Shown: piece by piece, positions 53,064 through 64,000 of the stretch
How the letters are laid out: each line of letters opens with the position of its first letter
Numbering within the stretch: the stretch's first letter is position 1
Origin: Calothrix sp. PCC 7103
GTDB lineage: Bacteria > Cyanobacteriota > Cyanobacteriia > Cyanobacteriales > Nostocaceae
Direction: 5' to 3'
Assembly (NCBI RefSeq): GCF_000331305.1
Contig: NZ_KB217478.1
Coordinates: forward strand, 1,409,679-1,473,678
DNA: 64,000 nt
The notes under the pieces: model-generated
What the model was told of the DNA's origin: nothing
Database searches by the model: none
Seen by the model: the letters and a program-made list of their open reading frames with translations, nothing else
Position numbers and translations under genes: made by a program

Positions 53064-53783
53064 ATGATTTCTGTTGAGCAGATTGTAATCTTAACTACTT
53101 TTATATCAATAGCGATGCTTCTGGGTTCTCGTTATCGTACAAAAAATGCATTGCAGTGGTGGTATGAGAGGCAATCTATAGAATTCCACGAAGAAGCGGA
53201 GTTTGCTAAAAATGGCTTGTTACAGGAGTCTTTTTTCCTTCGCCGGAGTATAGAACTATTAGATGGAAATCTCACGTCAAATTCTGGCAAAACTAAGGAA
53301 AAATACTTAAATAGCACCGAAAAGATATATAATGCAGTCACAGAGTTGATTAATCACCTGTCCCCTGCCTATGTCAATGATAGTTTACCATTGGCGATTC
53401 AGTACTTGGTTTCGGCTTGGAAGATAAAGCTGACAGCAGCAAGTTGGGCGATGAAACTACCTGTTGACTGGGATAACGAGTCTCCTATACACAGTCGAGT
53501 CCTGTTATCGGTACTCAATCGATTGTTTCAAGTTATTTCATCGCAGCAACAAATACCACAGCAAATACAAGTTTGTTTAGCCAAGCAAGGAGATTTAAAT
53601 GAAGTAACAGTCAAATTTAATTATCAAGATACTCTCGTTGCCACAAGTATCAGACGAATAAGAGAATTAGATTATATCAATAGAGTTTTTGCTATTTTAA
53701 TTTCTGGAAATTTTTATTATTATCAAAAATATGCAACATTAATATGTCGTCTCAATTGGAAAAGTGATAGTAAAGTTTCATAA
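53064..53783 (+). CDS. Membrane-anchored sensor-like protein, probably a degenerate kinase relative
   Basis: 239 residues from ATG 53064 (the frame extends to 53025). One N-terminal membrane segment (VEQIVILTTFISIAMLLG) precedes a helical region (FHEEAEFAKNGLLQESFFLR RSIELL) that resembles a dimerisation helix of NarX-type kinases but has no phospho-accepting His in the E-x-H position. The remainder lacks N and G boxes of a HATPase domain. It sits 35 bp upstream of the response regulator and is in the same direction as the CHASE2 kinase, so a role in that signalling unit is likely. Function is not assigned. Confidence 0.7.
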   Translation: MISVEQIVILTTFISIAMLLGSRYRTKNALQWWYERQSIEFHEEAEFAKNGLLQESFFLRRSIELLDGNLTSNSGKTKEKYLNSTEKIYNAVTELINHLSPAYVNDSLPLAIQYLVSAWKIKLTAASWAMKLPVDWDNESPIHSRVLLSVLNRLFQVISSQQQIPQQIQVCLAKQGDLNEVTVKFNYQDTLVATSIRRIRELDYINRVFAILISGNFYYYQKYATLICRLNWKSDSKVS

Positions 53784-53818
53784 ATCATAAGCCTACTTTT
53801 AAGTCGGAGTATTTACCC

Positions 53819-54496
53819 ATGAGTCAAGCGTTATTTAACCAAGAAATATTAAAAATTTTAGTAGTTGATGACCATGAGTTAATTTTAGGCTCAACTGTCC
53901 AGGTTTTAGAGCAGCACTATTCAAAAGTGGATATGCATACAGCTAAAACCGCATGGGAAGCTTTAGAAAAGTTAGATAAGATTAAGCCCCAATTATTTGT
54001 AGTTGATATTTCCATACCAGATAAAGATGGAGGAAGCGCGCGCTCGGAGGTAGGAATTAATTTAATTAAGACGGTGATGGAACGCTATCCCGAATTGCCT
54101 ATTGTCGTACAGAGTGCTGATTTTCGTCCTTTGGTGAAATTAAAATTTGCAATTCATGAACATGGCGCCGGGTTTATAGTCGCAGAGAAAAAGCTCACAA
54201 AACAAGAAATGTTAACCAGGGTGGACTGGGCACTTAATGGTGTAACTTATACACCTAAAGAAATGCGTTCAGGGTTAGAAATTAAAGAAGACTGGTTAAG
54301 GGTATTAGAGTTAGCTTTTAATCATGGACTGCAAGACAAAGCAATAGCCGAGGAGATGAATATAAGTGAGAGAACAGTACGTCGTCACTGGTCAAATATT
54401 CAGGATGCGTTGAGTATTTATGATTGTCCAGAAAAAAGAATAAACCTCCGGGTTCAAACGGGTATGCGAGCTAGGGAAGAAGGGTTAATTGATTGA
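53819..54496 (+). CDS. NarL/LuxR-type response regulator
   Basis: 225 residues. Receiver domain with the acidic pair D17/D18 (VVDDHE) and phospho-acceptor D63 (FVVDISIPDKDG); a short insertion (GGSARSEVG) follows the acceptor. The C-terminal LuxR helix-turn-helix is LQDKAIAEEMNISERTVRRH WSNIQDAL. It should bind DNA once phosphorylated, most likely by the CHASE2 kinase encoded 31 bp downstream. Targets are unknown. Confidence 0.93.
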   Translation: MSQALFNQEILKILVVDDHELILGSTVQVLEQHYSKVDMHTAKTAWEALEKLDKIKPQLFVVDISIPDKDGGSARSEVGINLIKTVMERYPELPIVVQSADFRPLVKLKFAIHEHGAGFIVAEKKLTKQEMLTRVDWALNGVTYTPKEMRSGLEIKEDWLRVLELAFNHGLQDKAIAEEMNISERTVRRHWSNIQDALSIYDCPEKRINLRVQTGMRAREEGLID

Positions 54497-54527
54497 TTAT
54501 TAAAATTGAAATAGCTGTAAATTAATA

Positions 54528-56426
54528 ATGATGCATAAATTTTGGAAAAAAATTAAGTCGGAATTTGCCGTTTGGCAAGTAGGTTTATTCCCAGGTTTAT
54601 TGATTTTTACTGCTGTTGTTATCGCGCGTCTAACAGGTTCACTACAATTTTTTGAGTTAGTGATGTTAGACAATTTTTTACGCTTACGTCCTTCCGAACC
54701 AATGGACGAAAGAATTGTAATTGTTGGCATTACTGAAAAAGATATTCAAAAAGTAAAAAGATATCCTATTCCTGATGAAAATATTGCTAATCTTTTAGAA
54801 AAAATTCGCGAATATCAACCTGCTGCTATTGGTCTTGATATTGTTCGCGATTTCCCTATTGAACCAGGAAGTAAGCGATTAAACGCAATTTTTAACGATG
54901 AAAGCAATAACGATGTATTTGCTATTGAAAAAGTCTTAAAAGACCGTGATGGCTATTCTATAGCACCACCACCTGAAATTTATCCAGATATGGTAGGATT
55001 TGTAGATGCAATACCCGATGACGATGGTTATTTACGACGCAGTATTTTAGATATTTCTCATGGACAACCAGAACCTCGCTTATCTCTATCTTTATTGTTA
55101 GCAGAACGTTATTTACATGTTCGCGATTCAAAACTTGTATTAGAAAGAGGGAAAAAAGACCCAGGTGCAACTCGTTTCGGTTCTGTAGAATTTACGCGCT
55201 TTCAAACAAATTCTGGTGGATATATTAATGCGGATGCTGGTGAAAATCAAATATTCTTGAATTATCGCAGTGGAAATAAACCTTTTCGCTTTATTTCTGC
55301 TGGTGAAGTTGAAAAGGGAAAACTGCAAAATGGCACAAAAATAAATCCTGAATGGTTTAAGAATCGTATTGTTTTGGTAGGTATTACTGCTTTAAGTGAG
55401 AAAGATGTTGTAAATTCATTTGCGGTTGGAGGAATAAACCCTGCACTGGTGTATGGTGTAGAAGCGCAAGCTCATGCAACAAGTCAAATTATTAGTGCAG
55501 TGTTAGATGGAAGACCATTACTTCAAGTCTGGTCTGATGGTTGGGAGTATATATGGATTCTTGCTTGGGGGGTAGTAGGAATTAGTCTTGGAAGATTTTT
55601 GCAATCACCCTGGAAGATAATGCTTGTTTTGCTGATAAGTAGTGGGTTTTTAATTTTATTGTGTTATGGATTAATTATTATTGGCTGGTGGGTTCCTATT
55701 GTTCCAACTATAATTATTTTATGGTTAAATGGTGGAGGGTTGACGGCTACTTTATTTTATCGCTACTACCAGAATATCAAAGAACGTGAATCAAGATTGA
55801 GACAAAAAGAAGCAGTTAAACAACGTATCTTTACAAGAATTCATAATGAACCGCTACAAACTTTACAATTACTTCTTAGAGAGAAAGATAATATTCCCGA
55901 ATCTTTAATGCTAAAATTAGAATATTTAGATAAAGAAATTCGAGACATTTGTGATGATGAAAAAGCGCATTTACTAGATGAAGATAATGTTTTAGTATTA
56001 GGAAATGATACAACAATAGATTTACACCATCCACTACGTGAATTATTACAAAATGTTTATATTCATACTTTAGAAAAAGATTTTCCCAATTTTCAATCTA
56101 TTAAAGTTAAAATTATTACATTTGACTCTATTGATGATTCTAAGTTGAACATAGAAGATAAGCGGGGTATATGTAGGTTTCTTGAAGAGGCATTGATAAA
56201 TGTGGGTAAGTATGCTTACGGCGCCACACGTTTGCATGTTGTTTGTAAGCAAGAGAATGATAAGCAAATAATTAGAGTTACAGATAACGGAATAGGAATG
56301 ATTCAAACTTCTCAATCTCAGTCTTTAGGAACAAACTTAACTAATAAGTTAGCAAAAAACCTCTGTGGCGAATTTCGTAGATACTCTCATACTCCCAAAG
56401 GAACTGTTTGTGAGTTTATGTGGTAA
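54528..56426 (+). CDS. CHASE2-domain sensor histidine kinase
   Basis: 632 residues. An N-terminal membrane segment (about 20-42), a large extracytoplasmic CHASE2 domain (about 45-325, with DERIVIVGITEKDIQK and AAIGLDIVRDFP), three membrane segments (about 335-405), a short coil, and a NarX-type transmitter: phospho-acceptor H439 in RIHNEPLQTLQLL, N-box EEALINVGKYAYGA, G-box DNGIGM near 587. The ATP-binding domain looks intact. The CHASE2 ligand is unknown. It forms a two-component pair with the regulator just upstream and stands beside DUF928 and CHAT genes. Confidence 0.94.
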   Translation: MMHKFWKKIKSEFAVWQVGLFPGLLIFTAVVIARLTGSLQFFELVMLDNFLRLRPSEPMDERIVIVGITEKDIQKVKRYPIPDENIANLLEKIREYQPAAIGLDIVRDFPIEPGSKRLNAIFNDESNNDVFAIEKVLKDRDGYSIAPPPEIYPDMVGFVDAIPDDDGYLRRSILDISHGQPEPRLSLSLLLAERYLHVRDSKLVLERGKKDPGATRFGSVEFTRFQTNSGGYINADAGENQIFLNYRSGNKPFRFISAGEVEKGKLQNGTKINPEWFKNRIVLVGITALSEKDVVNSFAVGGINPALVYGVEAQAHATSQIISAVLDGRPLLQVWSDGWEYIWILAWGVVGISLGRFLQSPWKIMLVLLISSGFLILLCYGLIIIGWWVPIVPTIIILWLNGGGLTATLFYRYYQNIKERESRLRQKEAVKQRIFTRIHNEPLQTLQLLLREKDNIPESLMLKLEYLDKEIRDICDDEKAHLLDEDNVLVLGNDTTIDLHHPLRELLQNVYIHTLEKDFPNFQSIKVKIITFDSIDDSKLNIEDKRGICRFLEEALINVGKYAYGATRLHVVCKQENDKQIIRVTDNGIGMIQTSQSQSLGTNLTNKLAKNLCGEFRRYSHTPKGTVCEFMW

Positions 56427-56654
56427 ATCTTGTTAGAAACCCTCCCCTAACCCTCTCCTACGAGGAGAGGAGAATAGATGTACTTCTCATTTTTTTTATA
56501 AGGAGCCTGTTGGGGGTTAGGTAACAATGGCGCCAGGTATGTTACCCCTAAATATTTTAGTGCAGTTTTCTGCATCTCAATCGGCACCCCTCTTTGTGGT
56601 ATTTATAAGCATAAACTCGTATTCTATAAATAAGAGAATATTTTAGTAAAAGTT

Positions 56655-57512
56655 ATGAGCAAGCAGAAATTCGCCTTGAGAATCTGGAAAAACAAATACA
56701 TCCCTTTCTTTTGTTCGTTGATAGTTTTTTTTAGTATTTTAACCCCAGTAAAAGCCCATATGCTGGTAAATAATCAATCTCTTATCAGTCAAAATAATAC
56801 TAGGCAACCTCAAACAAAACCAAGAATTAGAAGAATTAGAAAAAAATATAAACAATCTCCAAACACAGTTCCAATAAAAGACACCACATCATCATCTATT
56901 AAAGGTACAAGAACGTTTAATTCGTGTGAGAGCAAGTCAGAAGAAAAAATAACAATCTTAGCACCAAGTAAAGGCAATAATGGTAAAACAGTATCAACAA
57001 ACCCGACATTTGCTTGGTACATACCTGTGGCAAATCCTTATTTGGTAAGGTTTTCTATATTTCAAGATGAAGAGAAAGAACCTTTTTACTCCAGTAAACG
57101 AGTTCCTAGTAAACAGGGAATAATGGTACATACACTACCAAAGAATCTTAGCTTATCTGCTAATCGAAACTATACTTGGAAAGTCATAATCTACTGTAAT
57201 TCCGCTGAAACATCGAAGAATTTCGCAGTTGAATCGAAGTTACAAGTAGTGCAAGTACCATCAAATTTGGAAACACAAATTAATTCGATAAATAACCCAT
57301 TAGAAATAGTAGGATTATATGCAGACAATGGCTTATGGTATGATGCATTCGCTCAAACTTTACAAAATTCAAACAATTATTTAATGGCAGAAGAAAAACT
57401 TTGGTTATTGGTAGATTTGAAAAATGAAGATACTGATAAAGATTTACAAATTCAACTTCAGAAAATCATTGATAGAATGAGTAGTAAATCAGAAAATATA
57501 AACACAATATAA
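56655..57512 (+). CDS. Exported DUF928 domain protein
   Basis: 285 residues. Signal peptide about 1-35 (FFCSLIVFFSILTPVKA). A Lys/Arg/Thr-rich linker is followed by a DUF928 domain (about 95-215): ILAPSKGNNGKTVSTNPTFA WYIP, LVRFSIFQDE, NLSLSANRNYTWKVIIYCNS. The C-terminal helical tail (NNPLEIVGLYADNGLWYDAF) is also typical. DUF928 proteins are predicted to be secreted and recur in cyanobacteria next to CHASE2 and CHAT genes; their function is unknown. It is separated from the kinase by 228 bp and is convergent with the CHAT gene. Confidence 0.88.
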   Translation: MSKQKFALRIWKNKYIPFFCSLIVFFSILTPVKAHMLVNNQSLISQNNTRQPQTKPRIRRIRKKYKQSPNTVPIKDTTSSSIKGTRTFNSCESKSEEKITILAPSKGNNGKTVSTNPTFAWYIPVANPYLVRFSIFQDEEKEPFYSSKRVPSKQGIMVHTLPKNLSLSANRNYTWKVIIYCNSAETSKNFAVESKLQVVQVPSNLETQINSINNPLEIVGLYADNGLWYDAFAQTLQNSNNYLMAEEKLWLLVDLKNEDTDKDLQIQLQKIIDRMSSKSENINTI

Positions 57513-57523
57513 ATTTATTACTA

Positions 57524-57541
57524 GATAGGTATATACCTATC
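57524..57541. terminator. Bidirectional terminator between the DUF928 and CHAT genes
   Basis: GATAGGTATATACCTATC is a perfect 18-bp palindrome followed by TTTT, in the 38-bp gap between the two convergent stop codons. Confidence 0.75.
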
Positions 57542-57550
57542 TTTTCGTTG

Positions 57551-60310
57551 TTACTGCCAATTACCTACTAATATAAACGGCGCCCAGTAATAAGGATGCC
57601 GTTTTTGCTTTTTCAGATCATTTTGAGCTTCTTGTAGTGCTTGTGCTTTAGTCAATTGAGATTTACTTAAGCTTTGATAAAATACTTCAGTTAGACCTGC
57701 TGTTGCAGCATCATCAATAGACCACAATGATGCTAAAGTACTTTTTGCACCTGCTTGTACTGCAATTCCAGCTAGTCCTAATGATGAACGATCATCTCCT
57801 ACAGCACTGTCACAAGCAGTGATAGCAAGTAAATCAATTCTATTTTGCCTCTTTGTTTGACTACGAATTATTTCATCTAACTCTGTAATGGTTAATTTTT
57901 CTTTACCTTGTTCTCTTTCTCCTGTAACAATAAATGTATCTTTTGATTCTGCACCAGCTTCTCCGTGTGTTGCCATATGAATTACAGAATATATCTGTTT
58001 ATTTAGTTCTGCTTCCAAATTTTTGCGGTTAAAGTTTTCATTTTTCAATATTCTCTTGTTTGGAATTGAATTTATCTCTTGTACGACATGTTCTAAGAGC
58101 TTGAATTCTTCACCATCGATTACTCTTTTTTCTGCTAATCCTAATGCTAAAACTTGTAAACGACTTTTATCAAACTTTTTATTATCAATAAGAGAAAGAC
58201 TGGGTACAGTTGCAATTGCATATTTTTCAACTAAAAACTTTTCTCCATCATGTAACCCAGCCATCGGTACACTTTGAAAAATACCATCTTGAACAAAAAG
58301 AATTGTTTTAATTTGATTGTTTTTAAAAGATGTTTCATTCTCAAAAGGTTGAATAAGTATTCTATAAAGCTCTTGTGCTGGGAGCATATAGTCCTTTTCA
58401 TTAGAATATTTATCCTGTATTTCTTTACGGTAGTTGATAATTTTCTTTCTAAGACTTTCTTTGTCTTCGTCAATCCATATAACTTTTGACGATATTTCTG
58501 ATTCTCCGCTGGGTAAAGTCAAAATTATGGCTGTTTTATTATCAAAAATAATTGAGCTAATAATGGCTGTTTGTTTATTACCGCCAATTAATGATACTAT
58601 TTTATCTTTAAATTTACTTTTATGTTTATTATCCGAATTATCAGGCTCATTATTTAAATCTTGTTCAGGAATGTTTATTATACAGTCGCTACCAAAATAA
58701 TTCTGTAGTTCTCCTATTTTTAAAGAGTCTGTTGTCTCTAATGCTCCTAGTAAATCTTGACTATCATATTGATTTGATTTATTTTCTTTATTATCAGCTT
58801 CTGCATTTAACTGTAATGCTATTAATCCACGATAAATTGGTTCAACTTCGTCTCGAAAATCGAATTGAAAGTTACGGTTATCACTCAGTATTTCCTGACG
58901 CACTTTTTCTAAGCTGTGTTTAGAGTTTTTGTAGGCAATAATTGCATCAGCTATTTTACCTTGCTTTCTTAAAATTCTTCCTGCTTGCCATTCCCAAAGA
59001 AATAAGCTATCTTTTGCTGCTAAGTTTCGCTCTACTGCGTCTCTAGCTTGTTTGGTATAATATAGTGCCATATCATATTTATTACTGCACTCGTATAGTT
59101 TACCTAATTTGCCCAGAGCAAAAGATTTAGCACGGTTATCTTTAATTTGATCAGCAATATCAGCAGCTTTTTTCAGTAAATTTTCTGCTTCATATTCAAA
59201 AACTTTATTAGAAACGCTTACTAATGCTTCTTGCGAACATTGACTGAAACTTATAGGTAAACCATTCTCATCGACAGTTGGTTGCAATTTATCAGCCAAA
59301 TCAATATATATATAAGCTGTTTGACTATTGTTCGGCAAAGCTTTTGATAATTCTCTAGCATCGTTCCATAATTCTTGTAATTTTACATTTTCGCTTGTTT
59401 TTGTACGTTTATAAATAAAAAGTTTACTTAGGAATATTTGAACTTCTGCTAATTTACTGTCTGTTTGTCTTACAAGTTCAAGGCTTTTTTCTAATTCTTT
59501 TAATCCTCTTTCATCATCTTGTTTTGCTTCTTTTATCTTATTTTCTGTATCATCTCCCTGTTTTTTAAGAGAAAAAGCACGACGATAGTTAAGTGACGCG
59601 CGATTAATATATATATTAGCACGGCTATTTAATATAGCAATTTGATAATTTTTGTTATGGACTTTATCCTCATTTATCTTATCACCCTCTTTGAGTATTG
59701 TTATTGCTTTGCACTTGTCATCTTCACAACTTTCAAATAACCGATAAGCTTCTCCTAAACTTCCTAATGCAGCAACTTGTCCTTCAAAATCATTATTCTT
59801 TTGGGCAATTTGCAAAGCTGAACCAGTTTGACATTTATCGGTATCATCAGAATTACATAAAAGCTCGATTGCTTTTTTGGGTTGCCCGTAACTAGTGTAT
59901 ACCTGCGCTAGTTCGGTGAGTGAGCGTCCGAATTTTGATACATCTCCTAATTGACTATACAAGGGTACTACATATCCCCAGTGTTTTATTGCGTTTTCTG
60001 TTTGCCCTACTTGCTGATATGCTCTGGCTAAGTTTTCTGAAATGATTGCTTTATTTCGAGGATTACTATTATTTTTTTCTATATCTAAAGCTTTGTTCCA
60101 ATCTTCAATTGCATCAAGATATTGGTTTGCTTGATATTTTTTTACACCTTCTTGTACCCATTGACTTGATGTACTATTTTGTGCATTGGTAGCTTTACCA
60201 ATTTGAATTTGAATAGTACTAGATGTAATATTACCTAACCACAAACATACCGTCAGGCTAATACAGCAAAGGGATACCAGTAATTGATGCTTGCGAGATA
60301 GGTGTTTCAT
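57551..60310 (-). CDS. Exported TPR protein with a C-terminal CHAT (caspase-like) protease domain
   Basis: 919 residues. An N-terminal signal or anchor segment (about 8-30, LLVSLCCISLTVCLWLGN) suggests export. TPR units cover about 50-490 (YLDAIEDWNKAL, NAIKHWGYVVPLYSQLGD, KAIELL and others). The CHAT domain (about 640-919) keeps the catalytic dyad: H782 in HMATHGEAG and C833 in AITACDSAVGD. CHAT proteases belong to the caspase/separase clan CD; relatives such as TPR-CHAT in type III-E CRISPR cut a protein target. Target and trigger here are unknown. It is divergent from the truncated TpsA copy. Confidence 0.94.
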   Translation of the reverse strand: MKHLSRKHQLLVSLCCISLTVCLWLGNITSSTIQIQIGKATNAQNSTSSQWVQEGVKKYQANQYLDAIEDWNKALDIEKNNSNPRNKAIISENLARAYQQVGQTENAIKHWGYVVPLYSQLGDVSKFGRSLTELAQVYTSYGQPKKAIELLCNSDDTDKCQTGSALQIAQKNNDFEGQVAALGSLGEAYRLFESCEDDKCKAITILKEGDKINEDKVHNKNYQIAILNSRANIYINRASLNYRRAFSLKKQGDDTENKIKEAKQDDERGLKELEKSLELVRQTDSKLAEVQIFLSKLFIYKRTKTSENVKLQELWNDARELSKALPNNSQTAYIYIDLADKLQPTVDENGLPISFSQCSQEALVSVSNKVFEYEAENLLKKAADIADQIKDNRAKSFALGKLGKLYECSNKYDMALYYTKQARDAVERNLAAKDSLFLWEWQAGRILRKQGKIADAIIAYKNSKHSLEKVRQEILSDNRNFQFDFRDEVEPIYRGLIALQLNAEADNKENKSNQYDSQDLLGALETTDSLKIGELQNYFGSDCIINIPEQDLNNEPDNSDNKHKSKFKDKIVSLIGGNKQTAIISSIIFDNKTAIILTLPSGESEISSKVIWIDEDKESLRKKIINYRKEIQDKYSNEKDYMLPAQELYRILIQPFENETSFKNNQIKTILFVQDGIFQSVPMAGLHDGEKFLVEKYAIATVPSLSLIDNKKFDKSRLQVLALGLAEKRVIDGEEFKLLEHVVQEINSIPNKRILKNENFNRKNLEAELNKQIYSVIHMATHGEAGAESKDTFIVTGEREQGKEKLTITELDEIIRSQTKRQNRIDLLAITACDSAVGDDRSSLGLAGIAVQAGAKSTLASLWSIDDAATAGLTEVFYQSLSKSQLTKAQALQEAQNDLKKQKRHPYYWAPFILVGNWQ

Positions 60311-60404
60311 TAGCTAATTATAAAGGTTTTTAAACCAAAACAAGACTAAACGAGGATTTTAAATTCATATATAGACAAAACCATACCACTATTAGGGTGA
60401 TATA

Positions 60405-60757
60405 TGAATGTAGTATAGATTACTTTTACATGGAAACATTCTCATGGTATTTTTGTAAACATGTTGATTATCACTTTCAGTTCGCCTCGTTTGGATAAGT
60501 GTAGACAGGCGCCCGTTAGTAAATCTATTGTTCCGAAAGATTGAACTTATCAATACCAGGAGAGACTCGAAGTGAAAAATGTTGGTTTGGGCAGTATCAT
60601 TTGGCGTTTGAGTACATCTCTTTTACTTGGATGCATAAGTGCTTTCACTACATCTATCAGTCCAAGTTTTGCCCAAAGTAACATCGTCCCGACGAAACCC
60701 TAGGAGTTACTAAGTCTTCGAGGGTTATTTTCAACTTTAACGGCGCCGCAAACGATG
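60405..60757 (+). pseudogene. Truncated, frameshifted copy of the TpsA gene with its upstream region (copy A)
   Basis: Upstream homology to copy C begins near 60431 and to copy B near 60405. The reading frame starts at GTG 60572 after CAGGAGAGAC and encodes the same signal peptide as the intact gene (MKNVGLGSIIWRLSTSLLLG). A one-base deletion near 60690 (GTCCCGAC against GTACCCGAC) shifts the frame to a stop at 60701-60703. Nucleotide similarity continues to about 60757 and then ends abruptly. The product would be a 43-residue secreted peptide at most. Confidence 0.88.
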
Positions 60758-60932
60758 GTACCTATCATTTCATGAAAACTTTAATAATCATTATTATTTT
60801 TATTGAATCGTAAATTATTTACAAATTCATCATAAAATTTTGACTCTTAAACAATTTGTAATGTTTTTAATTACAGTATTTTTGTTCGATAGTATATTAT
60901 GATTAATCGAATAAGTTCAATCCATTTTAAAA
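60758..60932. other. AT-rich spacer before the Rpn-type gene
   Basis: 175 bp, strongly AT-rich, no gene. It starts where homology to the TpsA gene stops and probably contains the promoter of the gene at 60933. Confidence 0.5.
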
Positions 60933-61919
60933 ATGACTAATAATAACGACATAAATAATAGCAGCGAAACAAGGGAAGCAAGCGAGAACAAAATCAAAAA
61001 TCCCCCGACTAAATATGATTCGCCTTGGAAGGATATATTACAGATATATTTTAAGGATTTTATGGAGTTCTTCTTTCCTGCCGCGTATAACCAAATTGAT
61101 TGGACAAAAAAAATAGAGTTTTTAGATAAGGAACTTGAAGAAGTCACTAAAGATGCTGCGATTGGGCGCCGTTTTGCCGACAAGTTAGTAAAAATATATC
61201 TCAGAAATGGTCGAGAGGAGTGGGTATTAATACATATTGAAGTACAATCGCAAGAAGAAGAAGATTTTGCGATGCGGATGTATATCTATAATTATCGCAT
61301 CTACGATAATTATAAAAAAACTGTAGCTTCGCTGGCAATTTTGGGTGATGAAAAAGAAAATTGGCGCCCGTCGAGCTTTGGTTACAGTTTGTTTGGCTGC
61401 TCGTTAAATTTTGAGTTTCCAATTATAAAATTAGTAGACTATACTCAAAGACTAGCTGAACTCGAAAACGATGAAAACCCTTTTGCAACGGTAGTTATGG
61501 CACACCTGGCTGCTCTTAATACCCGTGAAGACCGCCAAGAACGTAAAGTACAGAAGCTGGCTTTGGTAAGAAGATTATATGAAAAAGGATTAGAGGAACA
61601 GGAGGTCATAAATTTACTAGCTTTTGTAGATTGGATGCTGACTCTACCACCGGACATTGAAGCAGAGTTTAAACTTGAAGTAAAACAACTTGAGGCTGGA
61701 CGACGTATGAAGTATGTAACATCTTTTGAGCGCAGTGCAAGGCAGGAGCAAACATTATTACTGGTAACACGGCAACTTAATCGCCGTTTGGGTAATATTG
61801 ATGAGGCTATCTTAGAGCGTGTGCGCTCTTTGTCTACTGAACAGTTAGAAGCGTTAGCTGAGGAATTACTTGATTTTACATCGGTTACTGATTTAACCAA
61901 CTGGTTATCAAATGGGTAA
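60933..61919 (+). CDS. Rpn/DUF4351 family putative nuclease (second copy)
   Basis: 328 residues. It is paralogous to the gene at 43787-44743: KYDSPWKDILQIYFKDFMEF FFPAAYNQIDW, then RFADKLVKIYLRNGREEWVLIHIEVQSQ with the ExQ nuclease core, and WRPSSFGYSLFG. The C-terminal about 55 residues (LLVTRQLNRRLGNIDEAILE RVRSLSTEQLEALAEELLDF) form a DUF4351 segment. A PD-(D/E)XK nuclease role in recombination is inferred from Rpn proteins. It lies between the TpsA copies and may have been involved in, or simply arrived with, that rearrangement. Confidence 0.87.
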   Translation: MTNNNDINNSSETREASENKIKNPPTKYDSPWKDILQIYFKDFMEFFFPAAYNQIDWTKKIEFLDKELEEVTKDAAIGRRFADKLVKIYLRNGREEWVLIHIEVQSQEEEDFAMRMYIYNYRIYDNYKKTVASLAILGDEKENWRPSSFGYSLFGCSLNFEFPIIKLVDYTQRLAELENDENPFATVVMAHLAALNTREDRQERKVQKLALVRRLYEKGLEEQEVINLLAFVDWMLTLPPDIEAEFKLEVKQLEAGRRMKYVTSFERSARQEQTLLLVTRQLNRRLGNIDEAILERVRSLSTEQLEALAEELLDFTSVTDLTNWLSNG

Positions 61920-61926
61920 TGGCAGG

Positions 61927-62117
61927 CACATACCCGCCCTAGTGGTTCATGTTATAAGTTTTGAGGGTAAAAATATTAGCAACGGATGACTCTAGAATGT
62001 AACGGATGGGTAATTTTAGATAACGAGACTTTGTTTGTATCAAATAAATCATCCGTTACATCCGTTGTATCCGTTGCCAGCCTACTCCCCAAAATTAATG
62101 ACACATACCCGCCCTAG
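61927..62117. repeat. Segment bounded by 16-bp direct repeats
   Basis: CACATACCCGCCCTAG occurs at 61927-61942 and 62102-62117. The enclosed 159 bp contain TGTAACGGATG (61998-62008) and its reverse complement CATCCGTTACA (62050-62060) plus further CCGTT repeats. It looks like an inserted or duplicated non-coding unit, but no terminal inverted repeats were found. Confidence 0.6.
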
Positions 62118-62171
62118 ACTATAAGCAAGTGGGCTAACTGTAGCGAAGCCTGCTATAAGCAGACCAATGAG

Positions 62172-62280
62172 TACGGATGTAATATAAATTACTTTTGTAT
62201 GGGAACACTCTCATGGTATTTTTAAAAACATATTGATTATCACTCTCGGTTCGCTTTTTTTAGATAAATATAAACAGGCG
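62172..62280 (+). repeat. Orphan copy of the TpsA upstream region (copy B)
   Basis: About 110 bp resemble 60405-60510 and 63064-63140: the TCTCATGGTATTTTT stretch, ACATATTGATTATCACTCTC and CAGGCGCC. Homology ends shortly after the GGCGCC, and no signal-peptide sequence follows, so only the promoter or leader portion is present. Confidence 0.8.
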
Positions 62281-62308
62281 CCGCAACGAAACGTAATGCA
62301 TTAAAACT

Positions 62309-62644
62309 TTAACTAAAGATATGGTGGTCAGATAAATTTCCTGCTTCAATAGCAACGTCTGATAATGCTTCTGAGTCCTGACTGATTTTGTCCCAACGGT
62401 ATTGCCAGCGTGCCAAGGTTCTTCCTACATCAACTAGCTCTGCTGCTTGTTCTACGTCAACTTCTACTAAAGTCGGCACCGTCCACTCTATAAAGAACAA
62501 ACTTTCTCTAATCAACGAAGCTGCTGTATCGAGGTTATTTCCCACTTCTCGCTTGATGGCGCCGAGGTTGTTTGCTATCTTGCTTAAACGAGTAGCAACG
62601 TCATCTTGTACAAAAATCTTTTCTTGCTGTATTAAATCTGTCAT
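62309..62644 (-). CDS. Small hypothetical protein paired with the DUF5674 protein
   Basis: 111 residues, mostly helical and acidic: MTDLIQQEKIFVQDDVATRL, then NNLGAIKREVGNNLDTAASL IRESLFFIEWTVPTLVEVDV. No membrane segment or catalytic motif is recognised. Its start overlaps the stop of the DUF5674 gene by four bases (ATGA), so the two are translated together. The arrangement resembles a toxin-antitoxin or regulator pair, but neither role is shown. Confidence 0.75.
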   Translation of the reverse strand: MTDLIQQEKIFVQDDVATRLSKIANNLGAIKREVGNNLDTAASLIRESLFFIEWTVPTLVEVDVEQAAELVDVGRTLARWQYRWDKISQDSEALSDVAIEAGNLSDHHIFS

Positions 62645-62967
62645 ATTCCACCTAGCAGTTCTATAATAATTTTTGCAACTCTTTCTCTTATGATAGAGTC
62701 TGATATTTCCATTGAACGATTTTGAGGAGCGCGAATATTAATCAAGGAGTCGTAAATAATTTCCTGTGTATCAGGCTCAAAACCCGCTCCCCAAATATCT
62801 TTTTGCTTACTGCCATCTGCAAGTAATTCCTGCTCACAGTAATAATGCATCTCTCCTCCACCTGCCAATATACGACGCTCGATATCGACTGCTAGCTTGA
62901 TAAACATTCCAAATTCCAAGAGCATCTCCTCCATCTCCTCGGTAGTCGCACGCCTGCGTATTATCAA
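62641..62967 (-). CDS. DUF5674 family protein
   Basis: 108 residues. The sequence IRRRATTEEMEEMLLEFGMF IKLAVDIERRILAGGGEMHY followed by ADGSKQKDIWGAGFEPDTQE and IYDSLINIRAPQNRSMEISD SIIRERV matches the DUF5674 pattern as I remember it (AGGGE-H, LWG, INIRP-QN-S). The function of the family is unknown. It is the first gene of a two-gene minus-strand unit, divergent from the intact TpsA gene. Confidence 0.8.
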   Translation of the reverse strand: MIIRRRATTEEMEEMLLEFGMFIKLAVDIERRILAGGGEMHYYCEQELLADGSKQKDIWGAGFEPDTQEIIYDSLINIRAPQNRSMEISDSIIRERVAKIIIELLGGI

Positions 62968-63063
62968 AACACAGAGGCACTAGATGCTAATGTTTATGAG
63001 TTATTTAACTCACCCGAAATATTTATTAGCATTACTTGACAAAAAAATCACAATTTAGGCACC

Positions 63064-63203
63064 GGAAACATTCTCATGGTATTTTTTAAAACATATTGAT
63101 TACCACTCTCGGTTCGCCTTGTTTGAATAAATATAGACAGGCGCCCGTTAATAAATCAATTGTTCCGAAAGATTGAACTTTTCGACACCAGGAGAGACTC
63201 AAA
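63064..63203 (+). promoter_or_regulatory. Upstream region of the intact TpsA gene (copy C)
   Basis: 140 bp shared with copies A and B. Conserved landmarks are TCTCATGGTATTTTT, TTGATTA-CACT, AGACAGGCGCCCGTTA, TTGTTCCGAAAGATTGAAC and the ribosome-binding site CAGGAGAGAC. The conservation between diverged copies suggests it includes the promoter and 5' leader. Confidence 0.65.
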
Positions 63204-64000
63204 GTGAAAAATGTTGGTTTGGGCAGTATTGTTTGGCGTTTGAGTACATCTCTTTTACTTGGATGCGTAAGTGCTTTCACTACATCTATCAGTCCAAGTT
63301 TTGCCCAAAGTAACATCGTACCCGACGAAACACTCGGAGCAACAGAGTCTTCGAGAGTTATTTTCAACTTTAACGGCGCCACAAACGATGCAATAATAGG
63401 AGGCGCCGAACGTGGACAGAATTTATTTCACAGTCTCAGAGAGTTTGGCATCAGCGAAAATAGAGGAGCTTATTTTTTGACTCCTAATGCCAATATCCAA
63501 AACATTTTTGCGCGAGTAACAGGAAGTAACCCTTCACAAATTTTTGGAACTCTGGGTGTACGTCAAGCAAATAACTTCACACCTTCAACCGCAAATCTGT
63601 ATTTAGTGAATCCGAATGGGGTTTTGTTCGGACAGAATGCTAGTTTGGATTTAGGAGGCTCTTTTGTTGTAACGACAGCTTCGGGAATTCAGTTTGGCGA
63701 TAGAGGAGTTTACAATGCGAGTGGTGGTCAACCTGCTGATGTTTTAACAATCAACCCTTCGGCTTTTTTGTTCAATCAAATATCTAGAGGTAATATTACC
63801 AATCGTTCTGTTGCACCTGCAGGGCAAAATTTAGTTGGTGAGAATATTACCGGGTTGCGTGTACCCAATGGTAAAAGTTTGTTGTTTTTGGGTGGTGATA
63901 TCAATATAGAAGGTGGTGGACTTAGTAACCCACCTTTTGATGGAAGTGGTGGACTGCGTGCTTATAACGGAAGAATAGAGCTAGGGAGTTTAGCGGCACC
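63204..64000 (+). CDS. Filamentous haemagglutinin-type (TpsA) secreted protein, 3' truncated by window end
   Basis: The frame is open from GTG 63204 to the window end (265 residues visible). A long signal peptide (MKNVGLGSIVWRLSTSLLLG ... SFAQS, about 1-38) precedes the TPS haemagglutination domain: NLFHSLREFGISENRGAYFL, NIQNIFARVTGSNPSQIFG, LYLVNPNGVLFGQNASLDLG and SFVVTTASGIQFG, with the diagnostic NPNG motif. Such proteins cross the outer membrane through a TpsB partner and often serve in adhesion or as contact-dependent toxins; the C-terminus deciding this lies outside the window. The GTG is chosen because of the upstream AGGAGA and the signal peptide. Confidence 0.93.
   Translation, partial: MKNVGLGSIVWRLSTSLLLGCVSAFTTSISPSFAQSNIVPDETLGATESSRVIFNFNGATNDAIIGGAERGQNLFHSLREFGISENRGAYFLTPNANIQNIFARVTGSNPSQIFGTLGVRQANNFTPSTANLYLVNPNGVLFGQNASLDLGGSFVVTTASGIQFGDRGVYNASGGQPADVLTINPSAFLFNQISRGNITNRSVAPAGQNLVGENITGLRVPNGKSLLFLGGDINIEGGGLSNPPFDGSGGLRAYNGRIELGSLAA

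Follow-up and report, generated by a model that had tools for sequence, protein, structure and literature searches.

CHAT proteins are mostly discussed as cytosolic proteases of conflict or cell death. The accessible description of one of them, the TPR-CHAT protein of Craspase (Csx29), has it bind a CRISPR effector. Cues of CHASE2 receptors are mostly unknown (PMC5192318; here and below, statements taken from PMC8195603, PMC4439547, PMC5192318 and PMC3482391 refer to the accessible passages of each paper). In EACC2-caspase-CHASE2 systems, the CHASE2 receptor occurs with an ECF sigma factor and DUF1822 (Kaur et al. 2021, PMC8195603). In Magnetospirillum, mtxA is followed by a gene similar to cyclase and CHASE2, and MtxA itself combines an Ig-like and TPR fold with a signal peptide (PMC4439547). 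In Burkholderia, insertion in the BiofilmReg operon, which encodes a response regulator (RR), an exported LysM/FecR protein and a CHASE2 histidine kinase (HK), abolished biofilm (PMC5192318). Two-partner secretion of the FhaB/FhaC type pairs a TPS-domain exoprotein with a ShlB/POTRA transporter.

Here, we analyzed a 64,000-nucleotide stretch of the Calothrix sp. PCC 7103 genome (the window), the last part of which is on balance probably a copy of an envelope-signalling module conserved in cyanobacteria, a grading that applies to our best explanation as a whole. The RR, CHASE2 HK, DUF928, TPR-CHAT and TpsA families named in a preliminary description were each found by Pfam where that description had placed them (Table 1). 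It had left aside the first gene, the convergence of the DUF928 and TPR-CHAT genes across a gap of 38 bp, and the decayed tpsA beside the CHAT gene.

Table 1. Features of the window region, in window coordinates.
Feature	Position	Strand	Evidence
Predicted pseudo-histidine-kinase ("DHpX", label coined here)	53064..53783	+	Long N-terminal helix, DHp-like helices, degenerate ATPase fold (predicted)
Response regulator (RR), receiver + LuxR-type HTH	53819..54496	+	Pfam Response_reg 9.2e-11, GerE HTH 5.6e-07, Sigma70_ECF
CHASE2 sensor histidine kinase (HK)	54528..56426	+	CHASE2 6.2e-60, HATPase_c 1.6e-06
DUF928 protein, export-type N-terminus	56655..57512	+	DUF928 2.9e-33; predicted Ig-like + helical (TPR-like) fold
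Exported-type TPR-CHAT (caspase-clan), dyad H782/C833	57551..60310	-	Pfam CHAT 1.6e-51, TPR_12; signal-peptide-like N-terminus
Decayed tpsA 5' end, head-to-head with CHAT gene	60432..60757	+	91% identity over 327 bp to 63064-63390, broken frame
TpsA exoprotein, start of gene	63204..64000	+	Pfam TPS 2.9e-36; gene runs past window to L021:17168

The window shares the CHASE2 receptor with the EACC2-caspase-CHASE2 systems, but here CHASE2 bears a histidine kinase instead of a caspase, and an RR replaces sigma and DUF1822. Pfam places CHASE2 and the histidine-kinase ATPase on one protein and gives no fused caspase domain there, and none of 10 neighbourhood proteins matches DUF1822. DUF928 is not in Kaur et al. 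2021 (PMC8195603), and exported CHAT and TpsA are not among the parts described in its accessible passages. The Burkholderia operon likewise joins an RR, a CHASE2 HK and an exported partner and controls a surface trait, biofilm. However, its partner is LysM/FecR (in the window DUF928 protein, neither LysM nor FecR was matched at E 0.1), its RR is of another class, and neither CHAT nor TpsA is among the four operon genes described (PMC5192318). The receptor beside MtxA has an adenylate-cyclase-type output, as opposed to the kinase of the window (PMC4439547).

Four paralogous clusters elsewhere in the genome share the gene set of the window copy, and three of these five have diverged, both among themselves and relative to the window copy. 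Across all five, the phospho-His and N/D/G-box residues of the HK and the Asp of the RR are invariant, which bears out the earlier claim of an intact two-component pair. To compare loci more widely, we used the best 80 of 237 confirmed kinase relatives, all from named organisms (HK-type loci); the denominators 71, 64 and 59 given below for HK-type loci are those among the 80 with sufficient flank. HK H439 is present in 85 of 87 aligned sequences and RR D17/D18/D63/K124 in 81 of 83, the remaining two being gaps in each case. The RR lies ≤2 kb upstream of the HK in 70 of 71 loci (69 of 71 by a stricter rule). Its HTH also fits sigma region-4 models (Sigma70_ECF at residues 156-194, 25.3 bits against a cut-off of 21.1); with no sigma region-2 match, the protein is a receiver-HTH regulator. 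The closest named relatives of the window are Calothrix PCC 7716 and Dulcicalothrix.

The first gene product is predicted to be a membrane-anchored pseudo-histidine-kinase. Its modelled fold is common to RetS/GacS and DesK-type histidine kinases, with a RetS-GacS complex structure among the matches; unlike these kinases, it has Lys at the position expected for phospho-His and lacks ATP-site motifs (judged by eye in an alignment of 33 of 35 locus sequences plus two from the source genome). By prediction it neither binds ATP nor takes up phosphate. An hhalign profile comparison with the kinase gave a weak match (probability 1.2%, E 0.043), and a PDB sequence search gave a single chance-level match (E 0.62). 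The gene is present in 32/67 HK-type loci and in three of the five clusters of its own genome, shortened in one. RetS antagonises GacS by pairing with the kinase and offers a model for such a kinase-like regulator.

An export-like N-terminus was found in 96 of 108 DUF928 proteins, compared with 6/75 RRs and 3/28 DUF1822 proteins. DUF928 is predicted to have the Ig+TPR fold of MtxA, although the TM-scores of the model are low (0.35/0.51), identity is 13%, and a PDB sequence search with DUF928 returned no match. Like mtxA, DUF928 genes adjoin CHASE2 genes: 20 of 22 in this genome (≤8 kb) and 48 of 59 regions in relatives. Because the mtxA gene also lies beside a CHASE2 gene and the predicted folds agree, DUF928 is probably a periplasmic partner of CHASE2, in contact with it on this model. 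DUF928, mentioned by one paper in the open-access literature searched, thereby gains a testable role, and the predicted fold may connect CHASE2 receptors across phyla.

The preliminary description held that these families recur together in cyanobacteria and set beforehand two outcomes that would speak against it: co-occurrence at the level expected from abundance, and loss of the catalytic dyad in most members. Neither was seen. The genome has 22 DUF928, 29 CHASE2, 80 CHAT and 64 TPS matches. Against random placement, in which small contigs were given approximate lengths, DUF928 lies ≤8 kb from CHASE2 in 20/22 cases (random mean 1.0), near CHAT in 21/22 (random mean 2.2) and near TPS in 13/22 (random mean 1.6). 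Among HK-type loci, 46/64 have DUF928 ≤5 kb downstream of the HK (about 0.5 expected). CHAT lies ≤7 kb away in 33/59 and tracks DUF928, being present in 33 of 44 loci with it and 0 of 15 without (Fisher 1.9e-07 on raw locus counts). A census of 59 DUF928 regions in 24 relatives, hand-picked by the analyst, had CHAT in 33 and TPS in 23. Coincidence of abundant families is rejected by these counts, which are far above random in the genome and in the best-80 loci alike. The CHAT and TpsA effectors are nevertheless not obligate, since DUF928 is missing from the surroundings of 18/64 HK-type loci (many of which keep the RR and pseudokinase), and of 45 full-flank loci 28 have CHAT and 16 have TPS/TpsB. 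At locus L211, the DUF928 frame overlaps the kinase end.

The TPR-CHAT protein retains the His/Cys dyad claimed for it: His782 and Cys833 are invariant across the five clusters and kept in 89 of 91 CHAT stretches, the other two being gaps. An export-like N-terminus is present in 63/64 TPR-CHAT proteins. We predict from these features an exported caspase-clan protease. TPR and CHAT are also combined in the Craspase protein, but that protein binds a CRISPR effector, whereas the window protein has an export-type N-terminus; scans of 10 neighbourhood proteins against Pfam and of 9 against NCBIfam gave no Cas7-11-like match. A PDB sequence search with the CHAT protein matched the TPRs of kinesin light chain. 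In the open-access literature, we found no co-mention of "CHAT domain" with CHASE2, DUF928 or "hemagglutinin."

In the genome, TpsA is 1654 aa long (the window end cuts its gene), with TPS as its one Pfam match at E 0.01, and is followed by a second tpsA and by tpsB, whose product has ShlB and POTRA_2 domains. The TPS domain and transporter are as in two-partner secretion of the FhaB/FhaC type, from which the system differs in coupling TpsA to CHAT, be it as an exported protein or as a fusion. TpsA and CHAT are joined in single proteins that keep the dyad in at least 11 families, and in 20 of 20 sampled ORFs, chosen for length, CHAT was C-terminal on the TPS protein. Of the 16 HK-type loci that contain CHAT and tpsA, 10 have them head-to-head and <600 bp apart. 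Among the 18 census regions with both, this arrangement was found in 0, and tpsA precedes CHAT on the same strand in 8. In the window, the tpsA beside CHAT has decayed. Fusions and adjacent pairs strengthen the proposed association of the CHAT protease with TpsA; that TpsA is its substrate we only infer.

Sister clusters in the same genome carry a CHAT-CHASE2 fusion, DUF1822 and a sigma-like gene beside DUF928, and the fused cytosolic CHAT keeps its H and C in 7/7. On the cytoplasmic side, the DUF928/CHASE2 core comes with one of two arms, either HK/RR or caspase-DUF1822-sigma. This second arm resembles an already published kind, the arrangement being similar in its CHAT-CHASE2, DUF1822 and sigma-like parts to that in the accessible text of Kaur et al. 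2021 (PMC8195603).

Gene conservation, active residues, export-type N-termini and TpsA-CHAT fusions are the observed basis of the model that we somewhat favour. Exported DUF928 would partner the CHASE2 domain in the periplasm and present an envelope or surface cue; the HK would pass phosphate to the LuxR-type RR; and the membrane-anchored pseudokinase, of predicted fold like the MtxA-like DUF928, would tune the two, perhaps through a pairing with the HK like that of RetS with GacS. The RR may then control a surface adhesin/protease pair, TpsB-secreted TpsA and exported TPR-CHAT; outside the cytoplasm, TpsA would serve the protease as a substrate or as a scaffold to work with. Sensor control of the CHAT protease, as first proposed, is plausible.

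It is possible, though rather unlikely, that two independent modules merely travel together, a CHASE2/DUF928 sensor with its regulon elsewhere and a CHAT/TpsA surface pair sharing gene-gain hot-spots. The loci without DUF928, the occurrence of TPS/TpsB in a minority of loci, and the abundance of CHAT and TPS each on its own fit such a reading. So does a comparison of the 300-bp stretches that precede the operon and the CHAT gene at 29 loci (loci with <150 bp were meant to be skipped), in which no common motif stood out in ungapped matches against 8 shuffles each: the best were at shuffle level or exceeded the top shuffle score by ≤1.5 points (L128, L179, L185, L190, L221). In L196 and L222, where the operon and CHAT stretches match over their full length, both come from a single divergent intergenic region, and the same holds for most long CHAT-TPS matches; in the window, that region is a duplicated promoter stretch. 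The strong tracking of DUF928 by CHAT and the recurrence of the layout in five clusters, three of them mutually diverged, argue instead for the linked module.

CHAT could also be a secreted effector against neighbours, with TpsA-CHAT fusions as polymorphic-toxin-like exoproteins bearing a C-terminal peptidase. We consider this unlikely, even with the consistent C-terminal position of CHAT in the fusions. Polymorphic toxins with a caspase-like toxin domain at the C-terminus have been described, and a table row lists T5SS delivery alongside caspase processing, but the routes named for caspase-type toxins are T7SS, PVC, TcdB/TcaC and T2SS, not T5SS (PMC3482391). In the window, CHAT is an exported protein in its own right, and PADLOC on four proteins gave receiver/HTH-type and TPR matches and nothing else. 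Regulated cell death, with CHASE2 sensing envelope damage and releasing a CHAT caspase that kills the cell, appears very improbable. CHAT is a caspase-clan member, and the CHAT-CHASE2 fusions resemble caspase-CHASE2 proteins discussed with death and conflict systems (PMC8195603), but window-type CHAT has an export-type N-terminus, the cytosolic arm is a kinase, and no link to a lethal target was found. No result specifically supports the death response once suggested for this locus, and we rank death-response and anti-phage readings low.

More tentatively, and with some doubt, the locus may exemplify an extracytoplasmic caspase system. DUF928 would be a general CHASE2 co-receptor fold (MtxA-like, perhaps replacing FecR-type partners in other phyla) that reads envelope or contact cues; kinase or caspase-sigma outputs would deploy CHAT on or beside two-partner-secreted stalks, and the cells of a filament or mat would signal to one another by proteolysis of TpsA. 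The favoured model itself suggests that cyanobacteria deploy caspase-type proteases beyond the cytoplasm, with envelope signals in control. The TPR-CHAT module and the TpsA-CHAT fusions would place part of the CHAT proteins outside the cytoplasm, and a large cyanobacterial genome, such as this one, can hold very many of them.

An undescribed variant of CHASE2 signaling in the open-access literature that we searched, the HK-type cluster (a response regulator, a CHASE2 histidine kinase, DUF928, an exported TPR-CHAT protein, and a TpsA neighborhood) is real and conserved, and it links an envelope sensor with caspase-clan proteins outside the cytoplasm. The window (G000:C7:1409679-1473678) carries one copy in a cyanobacterial genome of 11.58 Mb, in which we found matches to CHAT (80), TPS (64), CHASE2 (29), and DUF928 (22). 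Within 8 kb of the 22 DUF928 genes, CHASE2 occurred at 20, CHAT at 21, and TPS at 13, compared to means of 1.0, 2.2, and 1.6 (maxima of 5, 7, and 5) in 300 runs of random placement, for which the lengths of small contigs were approximated. This proximity, well over random placement in the source genome, bears out the preliminary description's claim that these families recur together.

Coordinates of features in the window, its paralogous clusters, and related loci
Feature	Position	Remarks
Pseudokinase	53064-53783	Predicted membrane-anchored pseudo-histidine-kinase
Response regulator	53819-54496	
CHASE2 histidine kinase	54528-56426	
DUF928	56655-57512	
TPR-CHAT	57551-60310	Strand opposite to preceding four genes
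Decayed tpsA 5' end	60432-60757	Head-to-head with CHAT; 91% identical to intact tpsA start
DUF4351/Rpn-like gene	60933-61919	Between CHAT and intact tpsA
Two small overlapping genes	62309-62967	Minus strand; adjoin tpsA; one DUF5674, other without match
TpsA	from 63204	Full length 1654 aa, remainder beyond window
DUF4351/Rpn-like gene, second copy	L021:17428-18111	Between the two tpsA copies
HK-type paralogues	window; C7:2926218; C11:86962; C12:230886; C12:1273530	C11 is a 210-kb contig
Short pseudokinase frame, C11 paralogue	L130:6580-7101	173 aa, without N-terminal part
TpsA-CHAT fusions	L136:4809-10613; L137:3921-9845; L138:6292-11277; L286:10005-15554; L289-L308	Intact dyad; 1476-3600 aa

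Five of the 29 CHASE2 loci matched a model of the window kinase C-terminus. In all five paralogous clusters, the response regulator, kinase, and DUF928 genes are co-stranded, CHAT lies tail to tail with DUF928 (gap of 38 to 47 bp in four), and a TPS match is nearby. Identities to the window copy (kinase, 41 to 47%; CHAT, 38 to 43%; DUF928, 25 to 31%; response regulator, 45 to 54%) mark most of these clusters as old duplicates; the C7:2926218 and C11 copies are nearer one another (74 to 93%). The pseudokinase occurs in three of the five, including the short C11 frame, where stops interrupt the guessed upstream frame.

Searching genome contigs with the C-terminal part of the kinase, we confirmed 237 relatives and analyzed the best 80 loci; the closest named kin among these, by identity over that part of the kinase, were Calothrix sp. 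PCC 7716 (87%) and Dulcicalothrix desertica PCC 7102 (84%). Where flanks sufficed, a response regulator lay within 2 kb upstream of the kinase in 70/71 loci, a pseudokinase within 4 kb in 32/67, DUF928 within 5 kb downstream in 46/64, and CHAT within 7 kb in 33/59 (antisense in 23 of the 33); about 0.5 DUF928 would be expected in the 64 downstream stretches at 1.25 per Mb, a density taken from a different genome set (239 in 26 genomes). Of 44 loci carrying DUF928, 33 also had CHAT, compared to 0 of 15 loci lacking DUF928 (Fisher, 1.9e-07). All of these locus counts, and the Fisher value, are uncorrected for relatedness. Among 45 full-flank loci, 35 had DUF928, 28 CHAT, and 16 TPS/TpsB, and many kinase loci were without the effectors. 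The DUF928 and CHAT genes converge in the window (57512-57551) and in 21 related loci, often at a very short distance (median over 21 loci, 76 bp), an arrangement that might allow antisense coupling of transcripts. Three kinase/response regulator/pseudokinase sets without DUF928 (L193, L224, and L202) adjoin a gene that begins similarly at each locus; by eye it resembles a secretion adaptor and is perhaps another output.

Loss of the catalytic dyads in most members, which by the preliminary description would have refuted its inference, was not observed: of 91 distinct aligned stretches, 89 had both the CHAT His and Cys, and the other 2 had gaps. The kinase His (85/87 aligned) and four response regulator residues (81/83) were likewise retained, the remainder being gaps; in the kinase G-box, G590 varies (Gly in 70/87) and another position is Ala in 3. 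By a simple hydrophobicity rule applied to N-termini (threshold, 2.0), export-type starts were called for 63/64 TPR-CHAT, 96/108 DUF928, and 34/49 TPS proteins, compared to 6/75 response regulators and 3/28 DUF1822 proteins as controls. The window TpsA falls slightly below the rule (1.83) yet has an Ala-x-Ala-type site, and the five paralogous CHAT proteins all share an Ala-Gln pair close to where the signal-like stretch ends. Targets of the response regulator are putative, as is protease activity of CHAT, and a search for a promoter motif in HK-type loci found none. The earlier interpretation is partly supported, and its suggestion of a death response gained no specific support.

CHAT and TpsA belong together, and in the HK-type clusters we infer the TpsA link. 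Three single genes of the source genome (1934, 1974, and 1661 aa; Pfam run on two) join an N-terminal TPS to a C-terminal CHAT domain, and another such fusion neighbors DUF928 and CHASE2 in a relative (G023). A search with the CHAT end of one of these fusions gave matches in 117 of 148 genomes from the order (E ≤ 1e-60); unfused CHAT would match this query too. Among 20 matches sampled one per genome from 11 families, all had a TPS domain and kept the dyad, which gives no fraction of fused CHAT genes because open frames of ≥1478 aa were chosen. In at least 11 families of the order, a caspase-clan domain ends a two-partner-secreted protein. Of the 16 HK-type loci (best 80 of 237) that carry both CHAT and tpsA, 10 have the two head-to-head less than 600 bp apart; of 18 census regions (hand-picked around DUF928 genes) with both, none had this arrangement and 8 had tpsA then CHAT on one strand. 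CHAT and tpsA lie 367 bp apart in Dulcicalothrix (L149). In the window, the decayed tpsA piece is beside CHAT, and other genes, including the DUF4351/Rpn-like gene, precede the intact tpsA, in which Pfam detected no C-terminal enzyme domain; beyond the window follow the TpsA remainder, a second TpsA, and TpsB. Calothrix PCC 7716 (L148) also has three short TPS frames. The two DUF4351/Rpn-like copies (86% identical over 763 bp) look like pieces of a local duplication, and the overlapping minus-strand pair is possibly a small paired module.

The census covered 59 DUF928 regions, some short, picked from the genome set that gave the 239 DUF928 matches; no genome contributed more than three, and 24 of 25 relatives are represented. 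It counted CHASE2 in 48, DUF1822 in 25, TPS in 23, a sigma-like protein in 11, and CHAT in 33. The CHAT model, made solely from matches of >240 residues, leaves the divergent CHAT domain of CHAT-CHASE2 fusions out of the last figure. In seven other DUF928 clusters examined in the source genome, the CHASE2 protein begins with a CHAT domain (Pfam check on one set) that retains the dyad His and Cys in 7/7 by alignment reading; upstream are a DUF1822-family gene (6/7) and a sigma-70-like gene (4/7). Kaur et al. (2021; PMC8195603) described EACC2-caspase proteins, a subset of which carry CHASE2, encoded close to ECF sigma and DUF1822 genes, and we take the sister clusters to be of the same kind, likened by caspase-CHASE2, sigma, and DUF1822 rather than by the EACC2 domain. 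Both types share DUF928 and exported proteins, whereas the window type has a histidine kinase and response regulator in place of that cytosolic arm: one sensor has two outputs, HK/response regulator or CHAT-DUF1822-sigma. The HTH of the window response regulator also matches sigma region-4 models (Sigma70_ECF, 25.3 bits, over cutoff), a match of note given the sigma-like protein used by the sister clusters.
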